Made by a program: the position numbers and the translations under genes. A model generated the notes under the pieces. The model did not search any database, had not been told where the DNA came from, and saw nothing but the letters and a program-made list of their open reading frames with translations. Below are positions 3,681 through 14,795 of a stretch of 23,390 nucleotides of DNA, piece by piece (the first letter of the stretch is position 1; each line of letters starts with the position of its first letter). Origin of the DNA: a virus; IMG/VR virus record IMGVR_UViG_3300023170_000178, positions 1 to 23,390 of that record; one strand, 5' to 3'.

Positions 3681-4070
3681 CTAACGCTCTTGGATTATAA
3701 CAGGTTGTGGTGCTAAGGGAAAGTTAATAATGCCAGCTCTTAATAAAAGACCTGTTAGGTTGAGGGCAACAGTTGCCGCAGCGAAACCTCCCAGGACTCT
3801 CCAGACCTTTTGTTCTAGTTTTCGTATTCTTGCAAACAGACTGTCATTACTGCGGTCCACTTTATCACTGAGTTTGTCAACCTTTGCAAATAATACAGTG
3901 TCGATCTCTTCTTGCTTTGATATGCGCTCTTCATGGACAGCGAGCATTCTGCTAACTGTTGTATTTACCTCACTTAATTTTTCAATCGCGTGATCAATTT
4001 TATACACGATTGGTTTCAAATCTTCGAGTTTTTGTTCTAGGATTGCGATCCTAACTTGTTCCTCTGCCAT
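3681..4070 (-). CDS. Coiled-coil protein with one C-terminal membrane segment, unknown function
   Basis: I do not recognise a named family with certainty. Residues 1-90 are a nearly continuous heptad-like helix (VRIAILEQKLEDLK, VDKLSDKVDRSNDSLFARI, KLEQKVWRVL). One hydrophobic span follows at about 93-115 (LGGFAAATVALNLTGLLL), then a short proline-containing tail. This coiled-coil plus single C-terminal helix layout resembles XhlA-type phage proteins associated with lysis, and also some virion tail-anchored proteins, but layout alone does not decide. The start overlaps the end of the upstream gene by 20 nt, and the stop lies 10 nt before the primase start, so it belongs to the same transcript. 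Function is unassigned. Confidence 0.8.
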   Translation of the reverse strand: MAEEQVRIAILEQKLEDLKPIVYKIDHAIEKLSEVNTTVSRMLAVHEERISKQEEIDTVLFAKVDKLSDKVDRSNDSLFARIRKLEQKVWRVLGGFAAATVALNLTGLLLRAGIINFPLAPQPVIIQER

Positions 4071-4365
4071 TGAAGGGAGTGAAATAAGGATTGTAGTTTA
4101 ATGCTTTTTTCCTTGCCTTTCTGTCTTCTCTCTTCTTCTTTCTGTCCATCAAATCTTTGATCGCTTTCTTCACATACTTATTGCGACCATCCAATCTCAT
4201 AACGGGGTCGAAACCAGCAGTAGGACCAGCAGCATTGGAGGAACCAGAAAATCCCCCAGATCCCCCAGGAGGATTTGCCACCATGCCTTCCTCTGAGACG
4301 CTAAATTCATTATACATTGCAGAACGAAATGCATTGATAACTCTATCGATCTTGTCTTTATCCAT
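4051..4365 (-). CDS. Small Gly/Ser-linker basic protein, unknown function
   Basis: This 104-aa protein is unrecognised. It has three visible parts: an N-terminal helix (MDKDKIDRVINAFRSAMYNEF), a flexible proline/glycine/serine-rich stretch at about 30-50 (PPGGSGGFSGSSNAAGP) leading into AGFDPVM, and a strongly basic C-terminal helix (KKAIKDLMDRKKKREDRKA). The Gly-rich run ending in AGFDPVM is a pattern I associate, from memory, with small cyanophage proteins of unknown role. The basic tail could bind nucleic acid or sit inside the capsid. It overlaps both neighbours, 20 nt downstream and 8 nt upstream, so expression is probably coupled. No signal peptide or membrane segment is visible. Confidence 0.8.
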   Translation of the reverse strand: MDKDKIDRVINAFRSAMYNEFSVSEEGMVANPPGGSGGFSGSSNAAGPTAGFDPVMRLDGRNKYVKKAIKDLMDRKKKREDRKARKKALNYNPYFTPFNGRGTS

Positions 4366-4743: not shown

Positions 4744-5274
4744 TCATCCTTCAGCAGTTGGATAAGGGATGTTACCTGTGGTGATACCAGACATCGCAAC
4801 AAGAACTTCTCTCTTGACTCTCAGGTTGCCGTGGTTGTCAACATAAGTTGTGATTCCAACCCAACCAGCATCAATCTTCTCATAACCAGCGGGGCCACCG
4901 ATAGCAGTGTCAGCATCCGAAACACCGTAGATGATTTTATCATCAGTGCCAGAGGAAGACTCACTGTAGGTGACATCCTTAACACTCGAAACAGGAAGTT
5001 CGGAGATGTAGAAATCAGCTCCAGCGATTGCTGCTCCGCTGAGACCTGCGGTAGAACCGATGGTCAGTGATTGAGTACCAGCGATGCTGACAATTACAGC
5101 GTCACCATAATAAGTCGAACCACCACCACGGGTTCCAAATCTAATTACATCACCAGTTTTAGCAGCGCCAACCTGGCCGAAAGTTGTGCCAGTTCCTGTT
5201 ACAGCACCAGTGCTGTAGTTCAGGGAAACGGTACCACCAGAACCAACTGCGTCGTTATTGCCCCAAAGTGCCAT
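4744..5274 (-). CDS. Probable virion surface or decoration protein, beta-rich, Gly/Thr/Ser-rich
   Basis: The protein is 176 aa and starts MALWGNNDAVGSGGTVSLNY, a beginning I associate with a cyanophage virion structural protein family. Composition is rich in Gly, Thr, Ser and Ala with alternating hydrophobic residues (GAVTGTGTTFGQVGAA, DAVIVSIAGTQSLTIGS), which fits a beta-sandwich or fibre-like fold exposed on a capsid. There are no cysteines, no catalytic motif and no signal peptide. It has its own T4-like late promoter (TATAAATA at 5318-5311) about 37 nt upstream and is shielded from upstream transcription by a terminator. That suggests high late expression, as for an abundant structural protein. 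The decoration role is inference; the late expression signal is seen directly. Confidence 0.8.
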   Translation of the reverse strand: MALWGNNDAVGSGGTVSLNYSTGAVTGTGTTFGQVGAAKTGDVIRFGTRGGGSTYYGDAVIVSIAGTQSLTIGSTAGLSGAAIAGADFYISELPVSSVKDVTYSESSSGTDDKIIYGVSDADTAIGGPAGYEKIDAGWVGITTYVDNHGNLRVKREVLVAMSGITTGNIPYPTAEG

Positions 5275-5310: not shown

Positions 5311-5318
5311 TATTTATA
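5311..5318 (-). promoter_or_regulatory. T4-like late promoter for the 176-aa virion protein
   Basis: Read on the minus strand this is TATAAATA, an exact match to the T4 late promoter core recognised by gp55-type late sigma factors. It lies about 37 nt upstream of the ATG at 5274 and directly after a terminator hairpin, so it would restart transcription for the structural gene. Confidence 0.75.
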
Positions 5319-5584: not shown

Positions 5585-5809
5585 TCAATCGAGGTTAGAA
5601 ACGTATTTCTTCTGAACAGGATCCCACTTCTTGACTTCGCCTTTACGAAGTCTGGACTGAGCATTCTTGGTGTCGTCCATATGGTCCTTCCAAGACTTAC
5701 CATACTTCATGCGTGCCTTACGCTCTTTGTCAGCCTTGTCATGCTCTGCGTCCTGTCTTTCTTCTTTGCTGCCGTAATAACCAGCAAAGGGAGCTTCGTG
5801 AAGTGACAT
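5585..5809 (-). CDS. Small highly charged protein, unknown function
   Basis: This 74-aa, lysine- and aspartate-rich protein starts MSLHEAPFAGYYGSKEER, followed by a long charged helix (HDKADKERKARMKYGKSW) and the C-terminal WDPVQKKYVSNLD. No known motif is visible. Its start codon shares one base with the stop of the 548-aa protein (TGATG), so it is probably translated by re-initiation from the same late mRNA. The charge pattern resembles the C-terminal parts of its upstream neighbour. A small virion or head protein is possible, but nothing in the sequence proves it. Confidence 0.75.
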   Translation of the reverse strand: MSLHEAPFAGYYGSKEERQDAEHDKADKERKARMKYGKSWKDHMDDTKNAQSRLRKGEVKKWDPVQKKYVSNLD

Positions 5810-7455
5810 CAGTCTCTGGGTGAATCGTACTTCGCTCTTGCTTGTGTTTCCTTCTTCTCTTTGGAAGTCAGTCCGTACTTCGCTGCACGTTGTGCCTGGG
5901 CACCTCTGCGACGAGCTGCTGCCTGTCCTTCGGTTTCCTTAGCACCACGAACCTTTTTGGGTTGTCTGGAACCAGGGTTTTCTTGACGGAACTTCTTAAT
6001 CAGACCAAACGCTCTGCCTGTCTTCTCATAACTGGAAATTTTCTTACCCTCTGCTTCCTTAGCAGGGTCTCTTGCTTCTTTGACTGACTTCGCCTTAGCA
6101 ACGGAAGACTTCTTGCGAGGACCGTCGGTGTAGTAAGTCTTACCAACCTCTGCCTTATCGACAACCTCACCAGTTTCAACATCGCGGTGCTTGAGACCTT
6201 CTTTCACTTGGGGTCCACGTTCGGCTTCCAGTTTAGCAGCAACTGCCATCTGACGACGCTTCTCTTTTGACTTTCCTTTGAACTGAGGAGCATCAGACTT
6301 GTAGAAGTCCTTTACCACATCACCCATGTCTGCTTTCTTTAGATTGAGTTTCTCATCAACCTGCTCAACATCCTCACCAATCTTCTCTTTGCGACCAACA
6401 CCCTTGCCTCTGTAAGTGGTTTCTCCGCTCTTTCTCTCTGACTCATAACCAGACTTAGCAAGACCCTTGACTCTTGCAACTGCGCTAGAGACTTTCTTTG
6501 CTGCTCTTCCAGGTGCAGACTTCACAGCGTCAGCGGTGTTTGCTGCTCTTGCAGCGGCACGGCCAGCACCAACGATTGCTTTCTTAGCAGCGGACTTCAG
6601 TCTGTCCTTAATTGAACCCTGCGTTTTCTTCTTCGCTGTAAATTGAGTTGTCTTTACATTAGCAGAATTTGACTTAGAAGTTTCAGTTGCTGAATCATAA
6701 TAACCCTCATCCAGAGTGGTCAGTGCTGACTCGATTCCAAACTCAACTTCATCCTCAGAGAAACCTTCTTTAAGCAGTTCCTCATAAACACTCCCAAGAA
6801 TGTAATCAAACTCATCATCATACTCCATCATCTCAAGGATGGTTCCACCCAGTGCCTCAATTGCCTCACTCACTCCCATTGGTGGGTTGATGATAACTTT
6901 GTTCTTGACTTTCTTGTCTTTGATTTCGACCTTCATCTCAGAATCCTTCTGTGCCTGAGAAGAAGGAGTGTCATAAGGGTTATCGATTACTTCAATCAGA
7001 TCAGTTCTCCAATTAGAAAAACCCTCCTGGACACCAGCACGTTGTGGTTTGATCTTTGACTTTCTCTTCTTGAAAGAATCCATGTCTACTGTGGTTCTGA
7101 TGGTTCTTGCCTGAGTTTCCAGTTTCTCTCTCTTAGAAGGATTCTCTTCCTTGGAAGCAGCGTAATCCTTATTGGATGCCTGGGAAAGCATACGTCCAAT
7201 GTGGATTGGTTTCTTATCTTCTTCTACTTTCTTTCTTCCTGGGAGATCACGAAGTTTCTTTCCAGAATACTTTTCCTTTGCCTTCTCTTGCCCAACTTGC
7301 ATCTTATTCTTTGGACCCTCATGGTCACAACCACAAGACTCATCCAAAGTGCCCTCTAGGCACTGGCATGGATCAAAACCACACACAGGACAAACAGTTT
7401 CTTCTGCAATGCTTGCCATGTAAACTGCAGACAAGTCGTTCAAGTGTTTAGACAT
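5809..7455 (-). CDS. Probable internal head or virion protein with Cys cluster and basic repeats
   Basis: This 548-aa, lysine-rich, low-complexity protein has the general layout of cyanophage virion proteins of unknown function. The N-terminus is an amphipathic helix (HLNDLSAVYMASIAE) ending in I16-A17-E18, which resembles a T4 gp21 prohead protease site. Directly after it comes a cysteine cluster (C22, C25, C30, C32, C41, C43, then H45) that could bind metal. A GFSNWRTDL...KNKVIINP segment lies at about 144-190. An acidic helical region follows at about 195-250, then an Ala/Lys/Arg-rich, histone-H1-like region at about 280-340. The remainder to the C-terminus is highly basic. Such composition suits DNA contact inside the capsid. 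A late promoter lies 35 nt upstream, inside the end of the preceding gene. No enzyme domain is visible. Confidence 0.82.
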   Translation of the reverse strand: MSKHLNDLSAVYMASIAEETVCPVCGFDPCQCLEGTLDESCGCDHEGPKNKMQVGQEKAKEKYSGKKLRDLPGRKKVEEDKKPIHIGRMLSQASNKDYAASKEENPSKREKLETQARTIRTTVDMDSFKKRKSKIKPQRAGVQEGFSNWRTDLIEVIDNPYDTPSSQAQKDSEMKVEIKDKKVKNKVIINPPMGVSEAIEALGGTILEMMEYDDEFDYILGSVYEELLKEGFSEDEVEFGIESALTTLDEGYYDSATETSKSNSANVKTTQFTAKKKTQGSIKDRLKSAAKKAIVGAGRAAARAANTADAVKSAPGRAAKKVSSAVARVKGLAKSGYESERKSGETTYRGKGVGRKEKIGEDVEQVDEKLNLKKADMGDVVKDFYKSDAPQFKGKSKEKRRQMAVAAKLEAERGPQVKEGLKHRDVETGEVVDKAEVGKTYYTDGPRKKSSVAKAKSVKEARDPAKEAEGKKISSYEKTGRAFGLIKKFRQENPGSRQPKKVRGAKETEGQAAARRRGAQAQRAAKYGLTSKEKKETQARAKYDSPRD

Positions 7456-7459
7456 TTCT

Positions 7460-8704
7460 TCAGACTCTTTTCTTATATCTATTTATGAACTCTTTAATAT
7501 TTGACTTAGGACCTTTGTAAGGTTTTCCACCTGACTGAAGGTTGGTGTCATCTCCTTTGTTAAACCCAGGAGTCATATCAGCAGCATACTTAAAGTAACC
7601 AGTTGTGCCAGTCAAAGTGTTTGGTTTATCTTTAGTTCTCATCTTGCGGTCCATCTTGACCTCAGTGTACTCATTGAGATCTCTGATCCAAGACTTGAAC
7701 ATCATGTTGTTCTCAGTCACACAGATCAGATAATTGGTTCCACGTCTGATAACCTTACCAACCAAACCAGTGTTCAGGTTCTCAACCAACTGATCAACCT
7801 GGAAGATGTTACCATTCACATAATTTTCACGAAGATTCTTCCAGTCAAACTTAGGAGCAATCTCCCACAAGTTCCAACCTTCCTCAACCTTCATCTTCTT
7901 TCTGAGGATTTGGAAGGTGGATCGGATTGCCTTATCATCCATCTCCTTTGGCATTCCTGAACGGAATGTTTCCATGTCATTATCTGCTGCTGCCTTTCTC
8001 ATCTTAGAGGCAGACATTCCTTCTACACCCTCGGAATCCGCATCTCGATTACCCGCAGAGATCGTCTGAATCTCATCGAAGTTATAAAGATCGCCGTTGT
8101 ATTTCTGAGCCAGCGAGTCAAATTCTGACATCCTGTCCGAACCAACGACAATATTGACATTCTTGTAACCTTCTTCATCAGCAGTTCTCAATGCGTCAAA
8201 GATAGTTTTGATATCTTCATCGTTATGGATGCTGTCCGCGTGCTTGGGATACATCTTTTTCATCAACTCAACCTTGGTCTCAGGATCCAAAGGATTCTTC
8301 TTTGGATCATAAGAACGTGAAGGATAAACATACATGTCACCAGGAAGTGCTGCTGCTTTATCCAGAACTCTCTTGTGACCGATGGTTGGAGGATTGAATC
8401 TTCCAAACACCAGAGTTACTGTTTCGCCTTCTTTCTCTGGTTGTCCGTCTACTGGTTTCTTACTCTTGTCACCCTCTTCTGGTGCTCCCCCTCTCTGCGC
8501 TTTGGGTTCTTCTTCTTTTCCCTGTGCTGCTTGTTTAGGTTGTTCGCCTGCTTTTACAGGTACAAGACGATCCCCCTCAGTCTTGGCAACAAAGTTACCC
8601 TGACTGTCGTACCAGTTGCCAGGTCCTCTTGCTACTAAACCTTTGCGCTTCGCTTGATCAGCGACGCTCGAAGCTTCGGAGAAAAACCTTAGAAAACTTT
8701 TCAT
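7460..8704 (-). CDS. Probable packaged virion protein with nucleotidyltransferase-like (HIGH-type) domain
   Basis: The 414-aa protein has four parts. Residues 1-13 (MKSFLRFFSEASS) resemble a T4 capsid-targeting peptide with an h-S-E|A cleavage-like site. A small module at about 20-50 (GLVARGPGNWYDSQGNFV) follows, also seen in the 757-aa protein of this cluster. After a low-complexity linker (51-94) comes a cytidylyl/adenylyltransferase-like fold: the nucleotide-binding loop FGRFNPPTIGHKR (about 100-112, GHKR replacing HxGH), VVGSDR at 186-191, and MSASKMR (230-236) in the place of the ISSTxxR motif. The C-terminal ~125 residues hold a small beta domain (GLVGKVIRRGTNYLICVT) that I have seen in cyanophage structural proteins. 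The substrate cannot be predicted; NMN, nicotinate nucleotide and phosphopantetheine are all possible for the fold. A double late promoter lies upstream. Confidence 0.82.
   Translation of the reverse strand: MKSFLRFFSEASSVADQAKRKGLVARGPGNWYDSQGNFVAKTEGDRLVPVKAGEQPKQAAQGKEEEPKAQRGGAPEEGDKSKKPVDGQPEKEGETVTLVFGRFNPPTIGHKRVLDKAAALPGDMYVYPSRSYDPKKNPLDPETKVELMKKMYPKHADSIHNDEDIKTIFDALRTADEEGYKNVNIVVGSDRMSEFDSLAQKYNGDLYNFDEIQTISAGNRDADSEGVEGMSASKMRKAAADNDMETFRSGMPKEMDDKAIRSTFQILRKKMKVEEGWNLWEIAPKFDWKNLRENYVNGNIFQVDQLVENLNTGLVGKVIRRGTNYLICVTENNMMFKSWIRDLNEYTEVKMDRKMRTKDKPNTLTGTTGYFKYAADMTPGFNKGDDTNLQSGGKPYKGPKSNIKEFINRYKKRV
7490..7496 (-). promoter_or_regulatory. T4-like late promoter ATAAATA for the 548-aa gene
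   Basis: The minus strand reads CATAAATAGATA, about 35 nt upstream of the ATG at 7455. It lies inside the last codons of the preceding 414-aa gene. Spacing matches the other late promoters of the window. Confidence 0.65.
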
Positions 8705-8735
8705 TATAACTTGTGAAACGTTTCTTTCATCCTGA

Positions 8736-8746
8736 TATTTATTTAT
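8736..8746 (-). promoter_or_regulatory. T4-like late promoter(s) ATAAATAAATA for the 414-aa gene
   Basis: The minus strand reads GGATAAATAAATATC, giving two overlapping ATAAATA cores 32-42 nt upstream of the ATG at 8704. They overlap the last codons of the methyltransferase gene. Similar spacing elsewhere in the block supports function. Confidence 0.65.
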
Positions 8747-9612
8747 CCAAGAAATGAATCAAGTGTTACAGGACGCTCGTCATAATGACCATTGATCAGG
8801 TCATACATGATGCCATGCTCAAGATACTCATCGATGTTGCTGGAACGCAAACCCCAAGCAATGTCGTGAAGTCCAATGGATTGTGCTCCAGAAGCAAAAC
8901 GAGCAATCTTAGTCCAGTCATGCTGGAGGATCAGATCCTTACTTCCTTGCATCCAACGACCAGTGTTGTCATTGTAAGGACGACCATCAGGATAAGCAAG
9001 TCCCTCCAGAATCATTCCAGCAGTTGAACCCTGAGTGCGGAGATAATATTCCGCTTCGTCTTTAGGAACTTGCTTGAAGAACTCACCATAAGGTGTGTTA
9101 CCAAACTTCTTCCGTTTGTAATCACGACGTTCCCACATCTGGAAGCAAGTTCTTACAAACTTCTCCTGTCCATCAGGAAGAATGAAGACTTGATTGGGAA
9201 GAGTGTAATCACCAACAGGATGATAAAACTCATTGATGCGATCAATGCGTTGAACCTTACGGAAGCACTGTGGAAGAATGATCGCAACACGATCAGCAAA
9301 CTTTGTGGCATGATTGAGAATGTCACATGCCAGACCACCCAACCAACCAAATGGTGGATTGGTCAACACCAGGTCAAAATGTTCTGGTGGTTGTTCAAGA
9401 AAGTCACCAACACGATCCAGAGGATGCTCATACTGATTGAGATCCCAAACGGTAACATTATCAAGACCCTTAACCAGGTGTCCCTCACCACAGCAAGGTT
9501 CAAGGATTGATCCTTCCAACCAACCCGCTTCAGCAAGGATGTTATGAACAAACTCAACGTCTTTGGGGTGAGTAAAGTAAGCATCTGAAATGGATTCAGA
9601 AAACTTAGACAT
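8743..9612 (-). CDS. DNA methyltransferase, N6-adenine type (NPPF)
   Basis: This 289-aa protein has the S-adenosylmethionine-binding fold of class I methyltransferases. Motif I appears as LEPCCGEGHLVKGL at about 37-50. An acidic residue follows strand 2 (VTVWDLNQY, D57). Motif IV is DLVLTNPPFGW (80-90), and NPPF is the hallmark of amino-methyltransferases acting on adenine. The N-terminal segment ISDAYFTHPKDVEFV resembles the start of Type I/IIG-like phage methylases. No target recognition domain or cognate restriction gene is obvious, so the target sequence is unknown and it may be an orphan enzyme that protects phage DNA or modifies host DNA. An RNA or protein target cannot be ruled out. 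The ATG shares one base with the sigma factor stop (TGATG). There is no own promoter, so it probably lies on the late mRNA from 14606. Confidence 0.85.
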   Translation of the reverse strand: MSKFSESISDAYFTHPKDVEFVHNILAEAGWLEGSILEPCCGEGHLVKGLDNVTVWDLNQYEHPLDRVGDFLEQPPEHFDLVLTNPPFGWLGGLACDILNHATKFADRVAIILPQCFRKVQRIDRINEFYHPVGDYTLPNQVFILPDGQEKFVRTCFQMWERRDYKRKKFGNTPYGEFFKQVPKDEAEYYLRTQGSTAGMILEGLAYPDGRPYNDNTGRWMQGSKDLILQHDWTKIARFASGAQSIGLHDIAWGLRSSNIDEYLEHGIMYDLINGHYDERPVTLDSFLG

Positions 9613-10304
9613 CAGACAATCTCCACAAAATGATTCTTCAGTTTCGCAATTGCTTTGCGCTCAATCAAGGAGATGGCTGCATATGAAACTCCATATAGTT
9701 TAGCACACTCACGCTGAGTCTTAGCAAGTTCTCCGTCAACACCATAACGATGACACAAAATGTTATACTCTCGCTCTGTCAGAACATCCTTCATCTGATC
9801 CTTGACAGCATCCAGTTCGTCAATTTCATTGTTCGTGATGAGATAAGAAGTCACATCCTCCAGAGTGGAGTTTTCCCCATAGGATGCGTTCAGTGAAAGA
9901 ACGACAGGAATCTTACTCTTCTCTGCCATCAGACCCTGAGCATCGTGGTCTTTGTTGAGTTTGCGAATCTTCTCAGTCACATGAACGGGAACACGAATCT
10001 TACCGTGGTTGTTGGCATTATAACGACTGATGAAGCAATAAACCCAGTAATAAGAATAGGTGGAAAAACGACAACCCTCTTTGGGGTCGAACTTTTCAAT
10101 GGCACGCATGAGACCGAAGACACCCTCTTGGAACAGATCCTCATAGGAATACTGTTCATTTTTATAATACAACTTCTTAGCGAGTTTACCAACGAGACCC
10201 AGATTGCGGGTCACCATGGTGTCGAATGCCTTTTTGTCTCCTGCCTGTGCTGCTTTACACAACTCAAGTTCCTCAACATGTGACAGCAGGGTGCGTTTCT
10301 TCAT
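9612..10304 (-). CDS. Sigma-70 family RNA polymerase factor, bacterial-type
   Basis: This 230-aa protein has two conserved sigma regions. Region 2 spans about 25-107: the core-binding segment YEDLFQEGVFGLMRAIEKFDP is textbook, followed by the -10-contact segment RFSTYSYYWVYCFISRY, where the usual WWIRQAI has diverged to YWVYCFI. Region 4 is at about 170-228: LTEREYNILCHRYGVDGE, then a helix-turn-helix LAKTQRECAKLYGVSYAAISLIERKAIAKL. Region 3 is mostly missing. T4-like late factor gp55 of cyanophages is usually shorter and lacks a full region 4, so this is more like a host group 2/3 factor acquired by the phage. It could direct host RNA polymerase to late promoters or remodel host transcription. 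It overlaps the 757-aa gene by 4 nt (ATGA). Whether it is the only late factor cannot be told from this window. Confidence 0.9.
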   Translation of the reverse strand: MKKRTLLSHVEELELCKAAQAGDKKAFDTMVTRNLGLVGKLAKKLYYKNEQYSYEDLFQEGVFGLMRAIEKFDPKEGCRFSTYSYYWVYCFISRYNANNHGKIRVPVHVTEKIRKLNKDHDAQGLMAEKSKIPVVLSLNASYGENSTLEDVTSYLITNNEIDELDAVKDQMKDVLTEREYNILCHRYGVDGELAKTQRECAKLYGVSYAAISLIERKAIAKLKNHFVEIV

Positions 10305-12574
10305 GTAATGGGGTCTCGCAGCGAACGTTTTAGTCTCTCTATCCTATCACGACCTGATGGTTTTGTCAAGGTAATGGTCTCTTCTTGAATCCATTCTCCC
10401 TCATCGTAATAATTTTCAAAGATGAGTTTCTTGAACTTCGCTGCCTCTTTGGGTTGCATGTTCTGGTCAATCAACTTCTCGTCAATCAAACCATTGGCAG
10501 CGAGAGACTTGTAGAACATCTTCTCCCATGTTCCTTTCTCATTCAGTTTTCCTTTTGTGAAAACTGCATCCTCTTCTGCTTCTGCATCAGGTCCCATTTG
10601 AGACAATGCTGTGGTTCTGTCCCCCGCTTCATGGAAAAGACTGTTGTAATTTTCAATCATTTCCTTTCTCTTCCCCGCGTCCTGACCAATCATGTTCATA
10701 ATTAGAGGACGGAACAACTCCTTCTGAGTTTTGATTTGAGACCTGGTGAGTTTCCTATCCTTCACCATTCCCAATGCCTTTCTCATCTTGTCACCGAGAG
10801 CAACAGGAGTTTTCTTGATTCCATTTCTGTCCATTGCTTCACTCTCTGCCAATTCATTATCAAACAGAGTCTGAATTGCTTCAGGAGAGGCAGAACTTGT
10901 GAACTGTTTGTTCTTAATTACATTGTCTAACAGAGATGCAAGACCTTTGTTCTTTGCTTGGAATGCTTTGTCTGCTGCTTCTAGATCAACATAATCACTC
11001 TTTGTCTTTCCACCATGCTTGTTCTTAACATTATCAAGAAACTTATCCATGTGAAGGTCTGACTTTTCATTGTTCACACCAGTTGCAATCCACAACCAGT
11101 TCTTGGCATTCTCTCTTTCTTTGAGTTGCTCAAGAGTCACACCCTCTTCACCAGGTTCCATTGCATTGATTCCGCGAACGTGCTCAAGTTCCATGTAACG
11201 GGGGTCAAGCAGATTACCAGTATAACCATCACGACCACCCTGGTCAAGATAAAGTTTCAGCAACAGTTTCTTTCTTGCTGTGCTGCTGTTCGTTGTTCTG
11301 TTTTTATCACCCTCTCCACCATAATGAAGTTTAGCAGCAGGAATGTTCTTGATTGAACCATCAGGTTGAAGTGCCTTGAAGGATGTTCCAATGTTACCTG
11401 AACCAAGTGCGCCCTTGAACGAATCGGGAATGACTTTCCAAAGTGCTTCGACTTGCTCCATGGGAGTGTCAACAATCTTTCTGGAGTTGACAAACTTTTC
11501 GATGGTTTCTGGCGACCCATCACCATAACCATTCAGCAACATCTTCTGAACATCAGGATTCAACAGCTGTTGAGCATCCTCATAAAACATTGTTCTCTTA
11601 CCTTCACCATGACGGATTCTTCCGCTGTAAGTGTTGGCGAGTGCCATCACCGAAATGAATTGGTCTCTCATGTCTTCTTCAGACATGTCAGAGTCTGCCA
11701 CTTTACTCTTCATAATTTCCTGAATGGAATCACGAATTGGTTTCATCTTCTCATCGATGATTTCATCTTCCATATCAAAGGACTCTTTCAACTTACTCTT
11801 GAAATCATTAATGAGTTGTTGTCTTTCAGAAACAACATTGTCAGCCACTGTGTCCATAACTTCTTCAGAATCACCAAGGTCTTCGAGAGGTCCTTCGCTT
11901 CTAAGTTCATCCAATAATCCTTCCAGACCTTCAGGAATTTCATCCTCCTCTTCAATGTCTTCATCTTCAACTGCCTGGTCCAAAGTGATTGGTTCAGGTG
12001 CTTCTTTCTTTTCTTCTGGTTCTGGTTGTGCTGCCTCTTCTTCATCAGCAGCGGCAGCATCTTCTTCTGCCTGTGCTGCCATCTGTGCTGCCAGTTCTTT
12101 CTCTTCCTCGCGTCTGGCAATCAGTTGTTGTGCTTCTTCTCTCTTCTTTTGCTTCATGGATGCGTTCATAACATCCCAGCGACCACGAGAGAGCATCATG
12201 GCAACCTGCTCAACATCACCACTGTCCATCACTTCAGCAGAAGGACCACCAGGAACACGGCGACTTCCCTGTGGGTCAGCAAGTTCCGATTCTAGGTCCA
12301 TGGACTGCTGCGCTACTGCGTCAGCGTCCTTTCTCATCTGAGCAAAGTTCTTAGGACCCTTCTCTTCAGGTGCTTTCTTTTCAGCAGTTTCTTTGTCGGC
12401 AACCTTTTCCAGTTTGCCGTTTCTTACTTCATATCTCTGCCCGCTCTTATCGTCAACATAATGTCCAAATCGAATGTTGCGGAGACCAAGTTTCTGTGCT
12501 TGCATTTGAGCAAGACTTGGTTGCTTCTCTTCGGAGATCTGTCTTGCTTTTTTTAGATACTTGAAAACGTCCAT
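10301..12574 (-). CDS. Large acidic virion-type protein with HNH-like nuclease domain
   Basis: This is a 757-aa protein. Residues 1-16 (MDVFKYLKKARQISEE) look like a capsid-targeting helix with an I-S-E cleavage-like site. At about 28-56 is the same GxxYxDxxG...GKLxxV module found in the 414-aa protein. A long Glu/Ala/Asp-rich low-complexity region runs from about 145 to 240, and a helical middle section follows to about 430. A candidate HNH/McrA-like domain spans about 440-510: DQGGRDGYTGNLL, then MELEHV (catalytic-type E464-H465), then NWLWIATGVNNEKSD (N492, N501). The zinc cysteines of many HNH enzymes are absent, as also in Cas9-type HNH domains. The C-terminal ~250 residues are helical and unassigned. 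The call of a packaged nuclease is inference; the motif set is visible. The gene lies 1 nt after the 303-aa gene. Confidence 0.8.
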   Translation of the reverse strand: MDVFKYLKKARQISEEKQPSLAQMQAQKLGLRNIRFGHYVDDKSGQRYEVRNGKLEKVADKETAEKKAPEEKGPKNFAQMRKDADAVAQQSMDLESELADPQGSRRVPGGPSAEVMDSGDVEQVAMMLSRGRWDVMNASMKQKKREEAQQLIARREEEKELAAQMAAQAEEDAAAADEEEAAQPEPEEKKEAPEPITLDQAVEDEDIEEEDEIPEGLEGLLDELRSEGPLEDLGDSEEVMDTVADNVVSERQQLINDFKSKLKESFDMEDEIIDEKMKPIRDSIQEIMKSKVADSDMSEEDMRDQFISVMALANTYSGRIRHGEGKRTMFYEDAQQLLNPDVQKMLLNGYGDGSPETIEKFVNSRKIVDTPMEQVEALWKVIPDSFKGALGSGNIGTSFKALQPDGSIKNIPAAKLHYGGEGDKNRTTNSSTARKKLLLKLYLDQGGRDGYTGNLLDPRYMELEHVRGINAMEPGEEGVTLEQLKERENAKNWLWIATGVNNEKSDLHMDKFLDNVKNKHGGKTKSDYVDLEAADKAFQAKNKGLASLLDNVIKNKQFTSSASPEAIQTLFDNELAESEAMDRNGIKKTPVALGDKMRKALGMVKDRKLTRSQIKTQKELFRPLIMNMIGQDAGKRKEMIENYNSLFHEAGDRTTALSQMGPDAEAEEDAVFTKGKLNEKGTWEKMFYKSLAANGLIDEKLIDQNMQPKEAAKFKKLIFENYYDEGEWIQEETITLTKPSGRDRIERLKRSLRDPIT

Positions 12575-12575
12575 C

Positions 12576-13487
12576 TTAACTCCAGGGGTCTCCTGACATC
12601 TTTAGACTGCTTGAAAACTTCTCAGATTCAAATTTAAATCTCATTTTCAAGATTTTCTTTGTTCCTGCCTTGACACCGACAGAATCATTACCAACTCCCT
12701 CAAAGGAGATGTTATCTCTTCGGATTGCTCGAAGTTTGTCATTGTCAAGTGGGTCTTCCACAGTTGCCGAATAAGGACCCGATGTCCCTCTTCCCGTCAC
12801 TTTAACATAGGGAGGTTGAAGTTGCTCCGAGGCATCAATCCAAGAGTTAAGAATGTATTCCAATCTGGCACTCTGAGATAGAGTATTTAACTTTGTCAGT
12901 AAGACACCACGAATGTTGTTGAGAGCAGTTGCTGCTGCCTCATCTGCTTTTTGTTTAATCAGAGGGTTGGCACGAATCTCTTGCTTTCTTGTCTGTCTGT
13001 TACTCGAAAGACCATATTGTTGAGCAAATGCTTCACCAGCAGCGTCAACAGTGGATTTTAGAGAGATGTTCAAGTCTCTCTCAACAGTTCCCACACCAGG
13101 ATTCTTAAATCCAATATCACCGCTGCTGCTCGTGGACTTGGCGGACAAACCAAGAAACTTTCCACCAGCAAACTCTACCAACACATCAGTTGGATTCTTG
13201 CGCTGGTCAACATCATAACCAGTCACTGCTCGGAAAGAGAAACCAGGACGTGCTGTCCAATGAACTCCCCTTACGCCATTGTACCCATTTCGTCCTGCCC
13301 AAGCAAGAAACTGTTCTGCCATCACAGAAGCACGACCCATTTGTTGTTGGGCTTGCTGGGGGGTCAGCAGTTCCAGTTTCCTGTCAAACTGAGCTTTGGA
13401 TTGTGTGTCAGGGAAAGCACCGTTATTCAGTGCAAAGGCTGTGTAGATTTCATTGACATCAGCCAGGTCCGTGTTGTTGGCTGGCAT
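12576..13487 (-). CDS. Probable virion-associated protein with possible PD-(D/E)xK nuclease core
   Basis: This 303-aa protein starts MPANNTDLADVNEIYTAFAL, a helix similar in position to those of its cluster mates but without a clear protease site. A helical segment (VMAEQFLAWAGRNGYNGV, 55-72) is followed by HWTARPGF. Then comes NPTDVLVEF (D101), a glycine turn, and FLGLSAKSTS (S115-A116-K117). A D...(E/S)xK pair on adjacent strands is the core of PD-(D/E)xK nucleases, including the variant with Ser in place of Glu. GDIGFKNPG follows, and the C-terminal half is of unknown fold. The family is not recognised by name. A nuclease would fit the adjacent HNH-like gene, but a DNA-binding structural role is equally possible. 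It starts 10 nt after the 356-aa gene. Confidence 0.75.
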   Translation of the reverse strand: MPANNTDLADVNEIYTAFALNNGAFPDTQSKAQFDRKLELLTPQQAQQQMGRASVMAEQFLAWAGRNGYNGVRGVHWTARPGFSFRAVTGYDVDQRKNPTDVLVEFAGGKFLGLSAKSTSSSGDIGFKNPGVGTVERDLNISLKSTVDAAGEAFAQQYGLSSNRQTRKQEIRANPLIKQKADEAAATALNNIRGVLLTKLNTLSQSARLEYILNSWIDASEQLQPPYVKVTGRGTSGPYSATVEDPLDNDKLRAIRRDNISFEGVGNDSVGVKAGTKKILKMRFKFESEKFSSSLKMSGDPWS

Positions 13488-13497
13488 CTGTCAAACC

Positions 13498-14568
13498 TCA
13501 CTTCTGCTTTTTCTCGATCTCTTTGCTCATCTTGGCAATTTGAGCGATGCTCAGATTACCAGTTCCAGTGAAACCAGGCTTCGAAGGATCTGGTTGCTTA
13601 GAATGAGTGCGATCTTTCTTACCTGCTTGATCGGGTTCACGCTGGTAACCTTCGTCCCAGGAGTTAACGATGGCATCGATTCTTGCCTGCTCTTCGGCAG
13701 AGAAAGTGACTCCTTCCTTTACACCCTTGTCCTTGGCAATCGCTTTGCCGATGGCCTTGCGACGCTTGGCAAGATACTTATCGGAGGAATCGGTGTCACC
13801 ATCGTTGTCGATGTCAGCGTCTTCCTGACCGACGGGATCCAGTTTTTCGTAGATTCCTTTGTAAGCAGATGCCCACTCGGTTCTGATCTTCGAAGGAACA
13901 CCCAGGATGTTCTCTTCCTTGAACTGTGGGTGATCATCCAGTTTCATGCCACGCTTCTTCTCAAGGCGTGCTTTCTGCTCGGCAGAGTTGTTACCACGGA
14001 TGTTCAGAGTCTTCTGCTTCAGTCTCTCTTTAGCAGCATCTCTTTCCTTCTGAGGGATCTCAAATCCCTTGATGTCCATGGTGCCTTCCAGCATCTTAGC
14101 GAAACCTTCCAGGACATTCTTTCTGTCCAGAGCAACACAGGCTTCATGAATCTTGGAGTTACCGTGCTCGTGAGAAATCTTACCCTGCCACTTCTCGACC
14201 AGAGGCTTGCTGTCACGATACTCAATGAAGCGAAGTTCTGCTTCTTCAGGTGCTCTCTCGGTCACCTTGTTGAAGGTTGTGTCAAATGCTTCGGCAAGTC
14301 TTGTTACCTTGGCAACACGCAAAGGTGATGAATCCTTATCTACGCTCTCTTCCAGGATTGATGCGACTGCTTCAAATGCATCTCCAGCGGAAACTCCCTC
14401 AAGGAAGAGTGCCTCAACGATGTCTTCAGCAACGAGGACCAGATCTTCTTTGGTCAGTTGAGTCAGATCCATTACAGAGATCTCATCTCTTGACTCATTA
14501 AGTTGTTGATTGACATCGGCATTATGCACAGCAGCATAAGCTCTGTACAGATGGCTCATATCGGACAT
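13498..14568 (-). CDS. Probable cyanophage virion/internal structural protein with EF-hand-like loop
   Basis: This 356-aa protein begins MSDMSHLYRAYAAVHNADV, a beginning I associate with cyanophage virion proteins of unknown role. The N-terminal helix is followed by Q22-L23-N24-E25|S26, a good match to the T4 gp21 prohead protease consensus. An acidic helical region (30-75) comes next, then basic/helical segments. A loop at 252-263 (DIDNDGDTDSSD) has aspartates at EF-hand positions 1, 3, 5, 7 and 12 with Gly at 6, so it may bind Ca2+. The lysine-rich, proline-containing C-terminus suits a DNA-facing or head-internal protein. It is the first gene of the late block and has its own TATAAATA promoter 31 nt upstream. 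The head location is inference from composition, promoter and cleavage-like site. Confidence 0.82.
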   Translation of the reverse strand: MSDMSHLYRAYAAVHNADVNQQLNESRDEISVMDLTQLTKEDLVLVAEDIVEALFLEGVSAGDAFEAVASILEESVDKDSSPLRVAKVTRLAEAFDTTFNKVTERAPEEAELRFIEYRDSKPLVEKWQGKISHEHGNSKIHEACVALDRKNVLEGFAKMLEGTMDIKGFEIPQKERDAAKERLKQKTLNIRGNNSAEQKARLEKKRGMKLDDHPQFKEENILGVPSKIRTEWASAYKGIYEKLDPVGQEDADIDNDGDTDSSDKYLAKRRKAIGKAIAKDKGVKEGVTFSAEEQARIDAIVNSWDEGYQREPDQAGKKDRTHSKQPDPSKPGFTGTGNLSIAQIAKMSKEIEKKQK

Positions 14569-14597: not shown

Positions 14598-14795
14598 TTA
14601 TTTATAAGTTTCTAACAACTCTCGTTCATCTTGATATGGCAGTTCCTTTTCAGTGAGCATGTCAAATCCTCTTTGGATCTCAGGATACAACCACACATCC
14701 CAATCTTTAGCACAATACTCCCAGTTCTGTGGAACTGTCACACATGGAATAACAACCATACCAATGAATGAGATGATGTAGTTGAGTGCTGTCAT
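14598..14795 (-). CDS. Small protein with N-terminal hydrophobic segment, unknown
   Basis: This 65-aa protein has residues 2-20 (TALNYIISFIGMVVIPCVT) forming one hydrophobic span, either a membrane anchor or an uncleaved signal. A polar, acidic tail rich in Trp, Tyr and Glu follows (WEYCAKDWDVWLYPEIQRG). No family is recognised. Its ATG overlaps the stop of the preceding gene by one base (TAATG). It is the last gene of the early-type run before the late block, and its stop region overlaps the late promoter at 14606-14599. Small single-span proteins of this kind are common in phage early regions as host-takeover factors, but no function can be read here. Confidence 0.7.
   Translation of the reverse strand: MTALNYIISFIGMVVIPCVTVPQNWEYCAKDWDVWLYPEIQRGFDMLTEKELPYQDERELLETYK
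14599..14606 (-). promoter_or_regulatory. T4-like late promoter TATAAATA at the head of the late block
   Basis: The minus strand reads CTTATAAATAACAATAACG. TATAAATA is an exact T4 late core, 31 nt upstream of the ATG at 14568, straddling the stop of the 65-aa gene. It is the best-placed promoter for the 356-, 303- and 757-aa genes, sigma factor and methyltransferase, which follow with gaps of 10 nt or less. Confidence 0.75.

Follow-up and report, generated by a model that had tools for sequence, protein, structure and literature searches.

The window analysed here is a 23,390-base viral contig of a T4-like cyanophage (IMG/VR record IMGVR_UViG_3300023170_000178) with all genes on the minus strand, and the run of genes in it that encodes proteins of 356, 303, 757, 414 and 548 amino acids (aa) is a late virion-protein cassette within the replication region. 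We consider it very likely that this cassette is an internal head protein system of the T4 type with enzymes as cargo, which is cut by a gp21-type prohead protease and probably delivered with the DNA. The proteins would be expressed late, N-terminal targeting peptides would recruit them into the prohead core, the phage's gp21-type protease would cut them at sites of the h-x-E/A type (the slash marks the cut), and the cut proteins would stay in the DNA-filled head and probably be delivered together with the DNA. That the proteins are cleaved by the protease, lie within the head and are injected is proposed by analogy with T4, which packages and delivers foreign proteins bearing the tag (PMC9026906, PMC3012670). 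A first-pass annotation of the same DNA had suggested a set of head-packaged, possibly injected proteins; its five open reading frames were verified as to strand, coordinates and N-termini (Table 1), but it had overlooked two genes inside the run, one for a sigma factor of the RpoD-like type and one for a methyltransferase-like protein. The gene order is nrdB, nrdA, gp61 primase, cassette, MazG, gp41, UvsX, gp43, Hsp20 and RegA-like, with names assigned by position and similarity to annotated relatives, and a comparable order is found in S-B05, P-TIM68, RN05-S and S-SCSM1.

For the 414-aa protein, sequence comparison gives good support to the predicted packaging into the head through a targeting peptide like that of T4. 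Its N-terminus, MKSFLRFFSE/AS, resembles that of the T4 internal protein IPIII, MKTYQEFIAE/AS (full sequences: cyanophage targeting peptide, MKSFLRFFSEAS; T4 IPIII N-terminus, MKTYQEFIAEAS), and T4 mutants have shown that residues 4 and 7 of the peptide direct targeting and residues 8 and 10 processing (PMC9026906). Across 60 unique nucleotidyltransferase leaders, F at residue 4, F at residue 7, L, F or I at residue 8 and E at residue 10 were present in 60/60 and A at residue 11 in 58/60; these leaders were gathered with a pattern requiring F at positions 4 and 7, and the independent observations are those at residues 8, 10 and 11. Nearly every full-length nucleotidyltransferase relative retrieved passes that pattern. 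As many of the loci compared in this work are related, the counts given here and below are not counts of independent events. The virion-detected nucleotidyltransferase of S-SZBM1 starts with MRFRQFIIE/A, one residue shorter, and retains the peptide in the absence of the leader module described below; therefore, the peptide is the common factor.

The first-pass assignment of the 414-aa protein as nucleotidyltransferase-like holds: besides its matches to PF01467 and PHROG 395, the motifs GRFNPPT.GH and SASKMR (HxGH-like and ISSxxxR-like, respectively) occur in nearly all of 89 relatives. The protein scored below the NCBIfam NMNAT equivalog cut-offs, and sequence searches of the PDB, for which this protein, the 757-aa and the 303-aa protein or their profiles served as queries, returned nothing useful. 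As to its role, our best guess is an NAD- or nucleotide-related activity; the HNH-like 757-aa protein and the 303-aa protein would most likely cleave DNA when infection starts.

The earlier argument had relied on an h-x-E site near the N-terminus of four of the proteins. The presence of such a site alone was rejected as evidence: in the complete S-SCSM1 genome a loose h-x-E within the first 40 aa was found in 28/47 virion proteins identified by mass spectrometry and in 153/235 other proteins, that is 65% of the latter (p = 0.81), and sharing of the pattern across proteins is thus no more than chance. Therefore, conservation, leader homology, expression context and virion presence were tested instead. 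The strict pattern M..[FYL]..[FY][LIVFM].E at the annotated start was matched by 2 of 282 S-SCSM1 proteins as compared to 0.09 expected, and these two are the virion nucleotidyltransferase and gp030. The latter (locus L005, 44215-44535) is a 106-aa protein of the structural region with a perfect T4-like tag, MKTFKQFMSE/S; it is conserved in 135 cyanophage records and carries no flag in the S-SCSM1 virion proteome. Cleavage sites apparently of the same type are present in capsid proteins (SFLAE/A in S-SCSM1, GILTE/A in S-SZBM1 and FLTE/A in T4), and gp21 is annotated in both S-SCSM1 and S-SZBM1.

Furthermore, the 757-aa protein appears to share with the 414-aa protein a leader which supports its packaging into the head, again judged by sequence. 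The module comprises about 35 residues (LGL..DG.G.W.D..G..VAKT...L) and lies behind the peptide in most of the nucleotidyltransferases retrieved. A leave-family-out hidden Markov model (HMM) built from the nucleotidyltransferase leaders alone matched a kinase of S-H34 (1.6e-25), ACG-2014f gp185 (2.4e-22) and other large proteins, and relatives of the 757-aa protein reach 1e-7. In whole-record searches the module was found solely near the cassette, and it was not found in T4. The peptide of the 757-aa protein is a longer and looser version, with F at position 4, L or F at position 7 and the site at positions 14-16, and h-x-E is retained at the equivalent place in 22 of 23 unique relatives. Its HNH-like assignment, made in the first pass, stands as a predicted activity: E-H, N, N and K of the motif are invariant in 23 sequences and Pfam HNH_4 matches a relative at 1.7e-4. 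The top three Foldseek matches were HNH domains, none of them significant (E above 0.5) and obtained with a model of moderate confidence.

The leader module is also carried by kinases of S-H34 and S-CRM01, and in the latter the kinase g130 starts with MISFDQFLSE, a perfect targeting peptide followed by the module. The consecutive S-CRM01 genes g126 to g130 each encode a protein with a site of this kind close to the N-terminus; the site is perfect in the nucleotidyltransferase, in a protein of 78 aa and in the kinase. A putative kinase has been reported among the S-CRM01 virion proteins, which we take to be g130. S-CRM01 g51 (locus L166, 8209-10287) has an HNH-like body encoded elsewhere in the genome with another N-terminus, MDPLQELYQLYE followed by the cut and A, and a late-promoter core upstream; body and leader are therefore exchanged. 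In two uncultured relatives reached via the 303-aa family (L118, 7696-11359; L124, 4822-8045), five consecutive genes have starts of the type F..[YH]L.E and differing bodies, one of them a distant relative of a protein from a Rhodobacter phage. A DUF6267-type protein with a KWDGAP motif, ligase-like by eye, has a targeting-like N-terminus at three loci (L145, 2488-3717, on which Pfam was run; L135, 2998-4233; L151, 2510-3721), whereas S-SZBM1_141 and S-CRM01 g132, the proteins of this type in the cyanophages examined, have none. ACG-2014f gp185 (L059, 8989-11667) is annotated as a cytidyltransferase, which may stem from the common leader; the true nucleotidyltransferase of that phage is gp189.

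Evidence for presence in the virion comes from the published proteomes of relatives, not from the phage of the window itself. For S-SCSM1, 45 virion proteins were identified by mass spectrometry (PMC9602691), and by our count its record carries 47 virion flags. The flagged proteins gp089, gp282, gp281 (the nucleotidyltransferase), gp280, gp279 and gp277 account for 6 of 7 consecutive genes at the same place in the replication block. Similarly, the syntenic open reading frames 136, 139 and 140 of S-SZBM1 are in its virion list, and the nucleotidyltransferase has been published in virions of S-SM1, S-CBWM1, S-SZBM1, S-SCSM1 and S-CREM2. No packaging mechanism was found in these published accounts of the virion nucleotidyltransferase.

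The late character claimed for the run was borne out by the promoters predicted from the sequence. The cyanophage late promoter is NATAAATA (PMC2984593), and TATAAATA or a close form of it is located upstream of the 356-, 414-, 548- and 176-aa genes and upstream of no replication gene in the window. When ATAAATA within 75 nt upstream of the start was counted across the fetched loci, it was present for 38/39 members of the 356-aa family, 35/35 of the 176-aa family and 45/59 of the 414-aa family, with 23/55 for the 303-aa and 5/37 for the 757-aa family, as compared to 0/153 starts of gp41, uvsX, nrdA, gp61 and gp43. Genes of the 757-aa family are probably co-transcribed.

Several observations weigh against an internal head protein system with enzyme cargo. 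No cleaved N-terminus has been observed so far, and the window is a 23-kb fragment, this phage's own gp21 lying beyond view. The leader of the window's own 757-aa protein matches the nucleotidyltransferase-leader HMM only at 8e-3. Conservation of the h-x-E site in homologues, proposed for all four proteins, holds for the 414- and 757-aa families but fails for the other two: E18 of the 548-aa protein is kept in 5 of 14 relatives and the column of E25 of the 356-aa protein is mostly Ser, and both were rejected as cleavage sites. The packaging claim is well supported for the 414-aa protein and supported for the 757-aa protein; for the 548- and 356-aa proteins a virion location is supported via related S-SCSM1 proteins and not via the cleavage sites named for them. 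Moreover, gp089, gp282, gp280 and gp279 of S-SCSM1 are found in virions without a canonical targeting peptide, and the peptide is therefore not the sole route into the virion. Finally, the S-SCSM1 authors allow that the nucleotidyltransferase may be a contaminant of CsCl-purified particles (PMC9602691).

This last concern, also raised for S-CREM2 by its authors, would fit an explanation in which abundant late cytosolic proteins co-purify with the particles and the N-terminal likeness is a general assembly or chaperone signal rather than one for head packaging, as would the several cassette proteins that have no canonical tag. We regard this as improbable: detection was independent in five cyanophages, all four positions mapped in T4 are retained exactly, and tagged genes with unrelated bodies occur in runs. 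A mere chance resemblance between the leaders of the 414- and 757-aa proteins, and of both to T4, is hardly credible: although a loose h-x-E is common among non-virion proteins, the strict pattern is expected at less than one per proteome, the leave-family-out HMM matches range down to 1e-25, and the invariance of the columns and the conservation in both families already contradict it. Somewhat more weight, while still unlikely, has the possibility that the proteins are components of the prohead core or scaffold like T4 gp67 and gp68, with enzyme domains that do nothing in the newly infected host. Late expression is in line with it, as are the low-complexity stretches rich in Lys and Glu of the 548-, 356- and 757-aa proteins, and gp21 also cuts T4 core proteins; the active-site motifs are, however, kept in nearly all nucleotidyltransferases, every HNH-like sequence has its H, N, N and K, and the cargo bodies differ between phages, unlike a core part. 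For the 548- and 356-aa proteins the scaffold explanation may be true.

A special case of the internal head protein system is that the payloads act in counter-defence immediately upon delivery, the nucleotidyltransferase restoring NAD+ or altering a nucleotide signal. T4 IPI blocks GmrSD (PMC3012670), NAD+-depleting defences and phage restoration of NAD+ exist (PMC12774641), and the cargo set changes between phages. Since both the defence target and the nucleotidyltransferase substrate are only putative, and NMNAT alone cannot rebuild NAD+ from ADP-ribose, this special case is a possibility that we treat as doubtful, albeit the least so of these alternatives.

The cassette resembles the T4 internal proteins IPI, IPII and IPIII, which carry the capsid-targeting sequence (CTS), in having at the N-terminus a peptide of 10 residues whose key positions and h-x-E/A site are the same, and in the unrelated bodies behind one tag that turn over rapidly between phages. 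It differs in that the T4 proteins are small whereas those of the cassette are large and enzyme-like, and in many of them the peptide is followed by the leader module as an additional conserved element. Likewise an enzyme packaged in the T4 head, the ADP-ribosyltransferase Alt has an N-terminal propeptide; no relative of Alt turned up among the cassette proteins. In the giant phages SPN3US and phiKZ, head cargo also has propeptides cut by a prohead protease and paralogues share an N-terminus, but these propeptides are 20 to over 100 residues long and the cleavage motifs are others (PMC5694885). The S-CRM01 virion Ser/Thr kinase has the same arrangement of peptide and module as the cassette and differs in its payload, the window having no kinase. 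Relatives of the 414-aa protein have been virion-detected as the cyanophage NMNAT/cytidyltransferase (T4-GC190), and the present analysis extends these accounts by the targeting peptide and by a connection with neighbouring cargo. In the part of the open literature on the capsid targeting sequence that was accessible to us, no description of a tag of this type in cyanophages was found.

Whether the arrangement is more general is evenly balanced: the T4-type peptide, often with the leader module, might be a modular cargo loader, widespread in the T4 superfamily outside T4. It would bring changing sets of enzymes (kinases, a nucleotidyltransferase, nucleases of the HNH-like and other types, and DUF6267 ligase-like proteins) into heads for delivery at infection, and most of this cargo would be encoded in a single late cassette devoted to it within the replication region. 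Cyanophages are among the commonest viruses of the sea, and a nucleotidyltransferase has been known in their particles since 2010, its route there unstated. The tag would explain why a nucleotide-transferring enzyme recurs in purified cyanophage particles, and a recognisable address tag would allow the uncharacterised proteins that are carried in the head to be predicted from sequence. In addition, it gives the exact new N-terminus to be sought in existing spectra, and packaging and delivery are testable in laboratory phages.

The 303-aa protein is possibly a PD-(D/E)xK nuclease, as the first pass had suggested. Among the residues invariant in the family are D101 and S-A-K117, the latter instead of E-x-K, and the fold matches are weak: the AlphaFold2 (AF2) model is confident, while the Foldseek matches, with PD-(D/E)xK enzymes among the leading ones and Cas4-like, AdnAB, EcoO109I and EcoRV also named there, are not significant (E 0.15 or worse). 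The family is widespread, with 174 confirmed IMG/VR loci; tblastn found none in isolated phages and a Pfam search of the family gave no match. The 303-aa profile does not reach the proteins in the same slot, S-SCSM1 gp282, P-TIM68 gp156 and ACG-2014f gp182, and by eye no more than a D-(V/I)-x(n)-S-(L/A)-K-like pattern is shared. Two family members (L134 and L145) have targeting-like extensions, VKTFREYISE and MKTFREFILE. The 356-aa protein shows a weak profile relation to S-SCSM1 gp089, and gp280 is the S-SCSM1 relative of the 548-aa protein, both being virion proteins by mass spectrometry. The counterparts of the 176-aa protein, S-SCSM1 gp277 and, by position, S-SZBM1_136, are virion proteins as well.

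Table 1. Features of the cassette and its surroundings in the window.
Feature	Position	Strand	Remarks
Late-promoter core TATAAATA	14599..14606	-	Exact match; ~31 nt upstream of 356-aa gene, first of cassette
356-aa protein, predicted virion protein	13498..14568	-	N-terminus Y-x-A-V-H conserved; EF-hand-like acidic loop
303-aa protein, candidate PD-(D/E)xK nuclease	12576..13487	-	Invariant E13, D101, S115-A-K117
D101-x13-S-A-K117 stretch of 303-aa protein	13137..13187	-	Residues invariant in 55 sequences
757-aa protein	10301..12574	-	Targeting-like helix, leader module, long acidic region, HNH-like domain
N-terminal peptide MDVFKYLKKARQISE	12530..12574	-	757-aa protein; candidate head-targeting peptide with h-x-E site
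Leader module (G-x-W/Y-x-D type)	12392..12526	-	757-aa protein; leader HMM
HNH-like motif YTG...LEH(V/I)R...RE(N/H)..N...N..K	11063..11224	-	757-aa protein
RpoD/SigA-like sigma factor	9612..10304	-	Profile matches; not the late factor gp55; lacks a leader
DNA methyltransferase-like protein	8743..9612	-	PHROG 5172 and 799
Late-promoter core GATAAATAAATA	8736..8747	-	Upstream of 414-aa gene
414-aa nucleotidyltransferase (NMNAT/cytidyltransferase-like)	7460..8704	-	PF01467 2e-7, PHROG 395 1e-102; orthologue of cyanophage virion proteins
Capsid-targeting-sequence-like peptide MKSFLRFFSE	8675..8704	-	Predicted cleavage before Ala11
Leader module GL..G.GNWYD.QGNFVAKT...L	8549..8641	-	414-aa protein; leader alignment/HMM
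Nucleotidyltransferase domain, motif GRFNPPTIGH	8108..8410	-	SASKMR-type motif further on
Late-promoter-like CATAAATA	7480..7487	-	Upstream of 548-aa gene
548-aa Cys- and Lys-rich protein, predicted virion protein	5809..7455	-	N-terminus LND(L/I)S.(V/I)Y
74-aa basic protein	5585..5809	-	Downstream of 548-aa gene; PHROG 12705
Late-promoter core TATAAATA	5311..5318	-	Exact match; upstream of 176-aa gene
176-aa tail-fibre-like virion protein	4744..5274	-	PHROG 3086; beyond the range of the first-pass annotation

The sigma factor and methyltransferase-like genes inside the run have no late promoter of their own. A second sigma factor of the RpoD/SigA-like type, separate from gp55, is found within the virion cassette both in the window and in ACG-2014f (L059, 13501-14193), and in both it adjoins a methyltransferase gene in the same neighbourhood. 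Outside the run, a 104-aa protein encoded at 4051-4365 (PHROG 696, E 2e-11) contains GFSGSSNAAGPTAGFDPV, which closely resembles the segment of the major capsid protein directly after the predicted cleavage site, and by this sequence likeness the protein appears to mimic, on a small scale, the N-terminus of the mature capsid protein.

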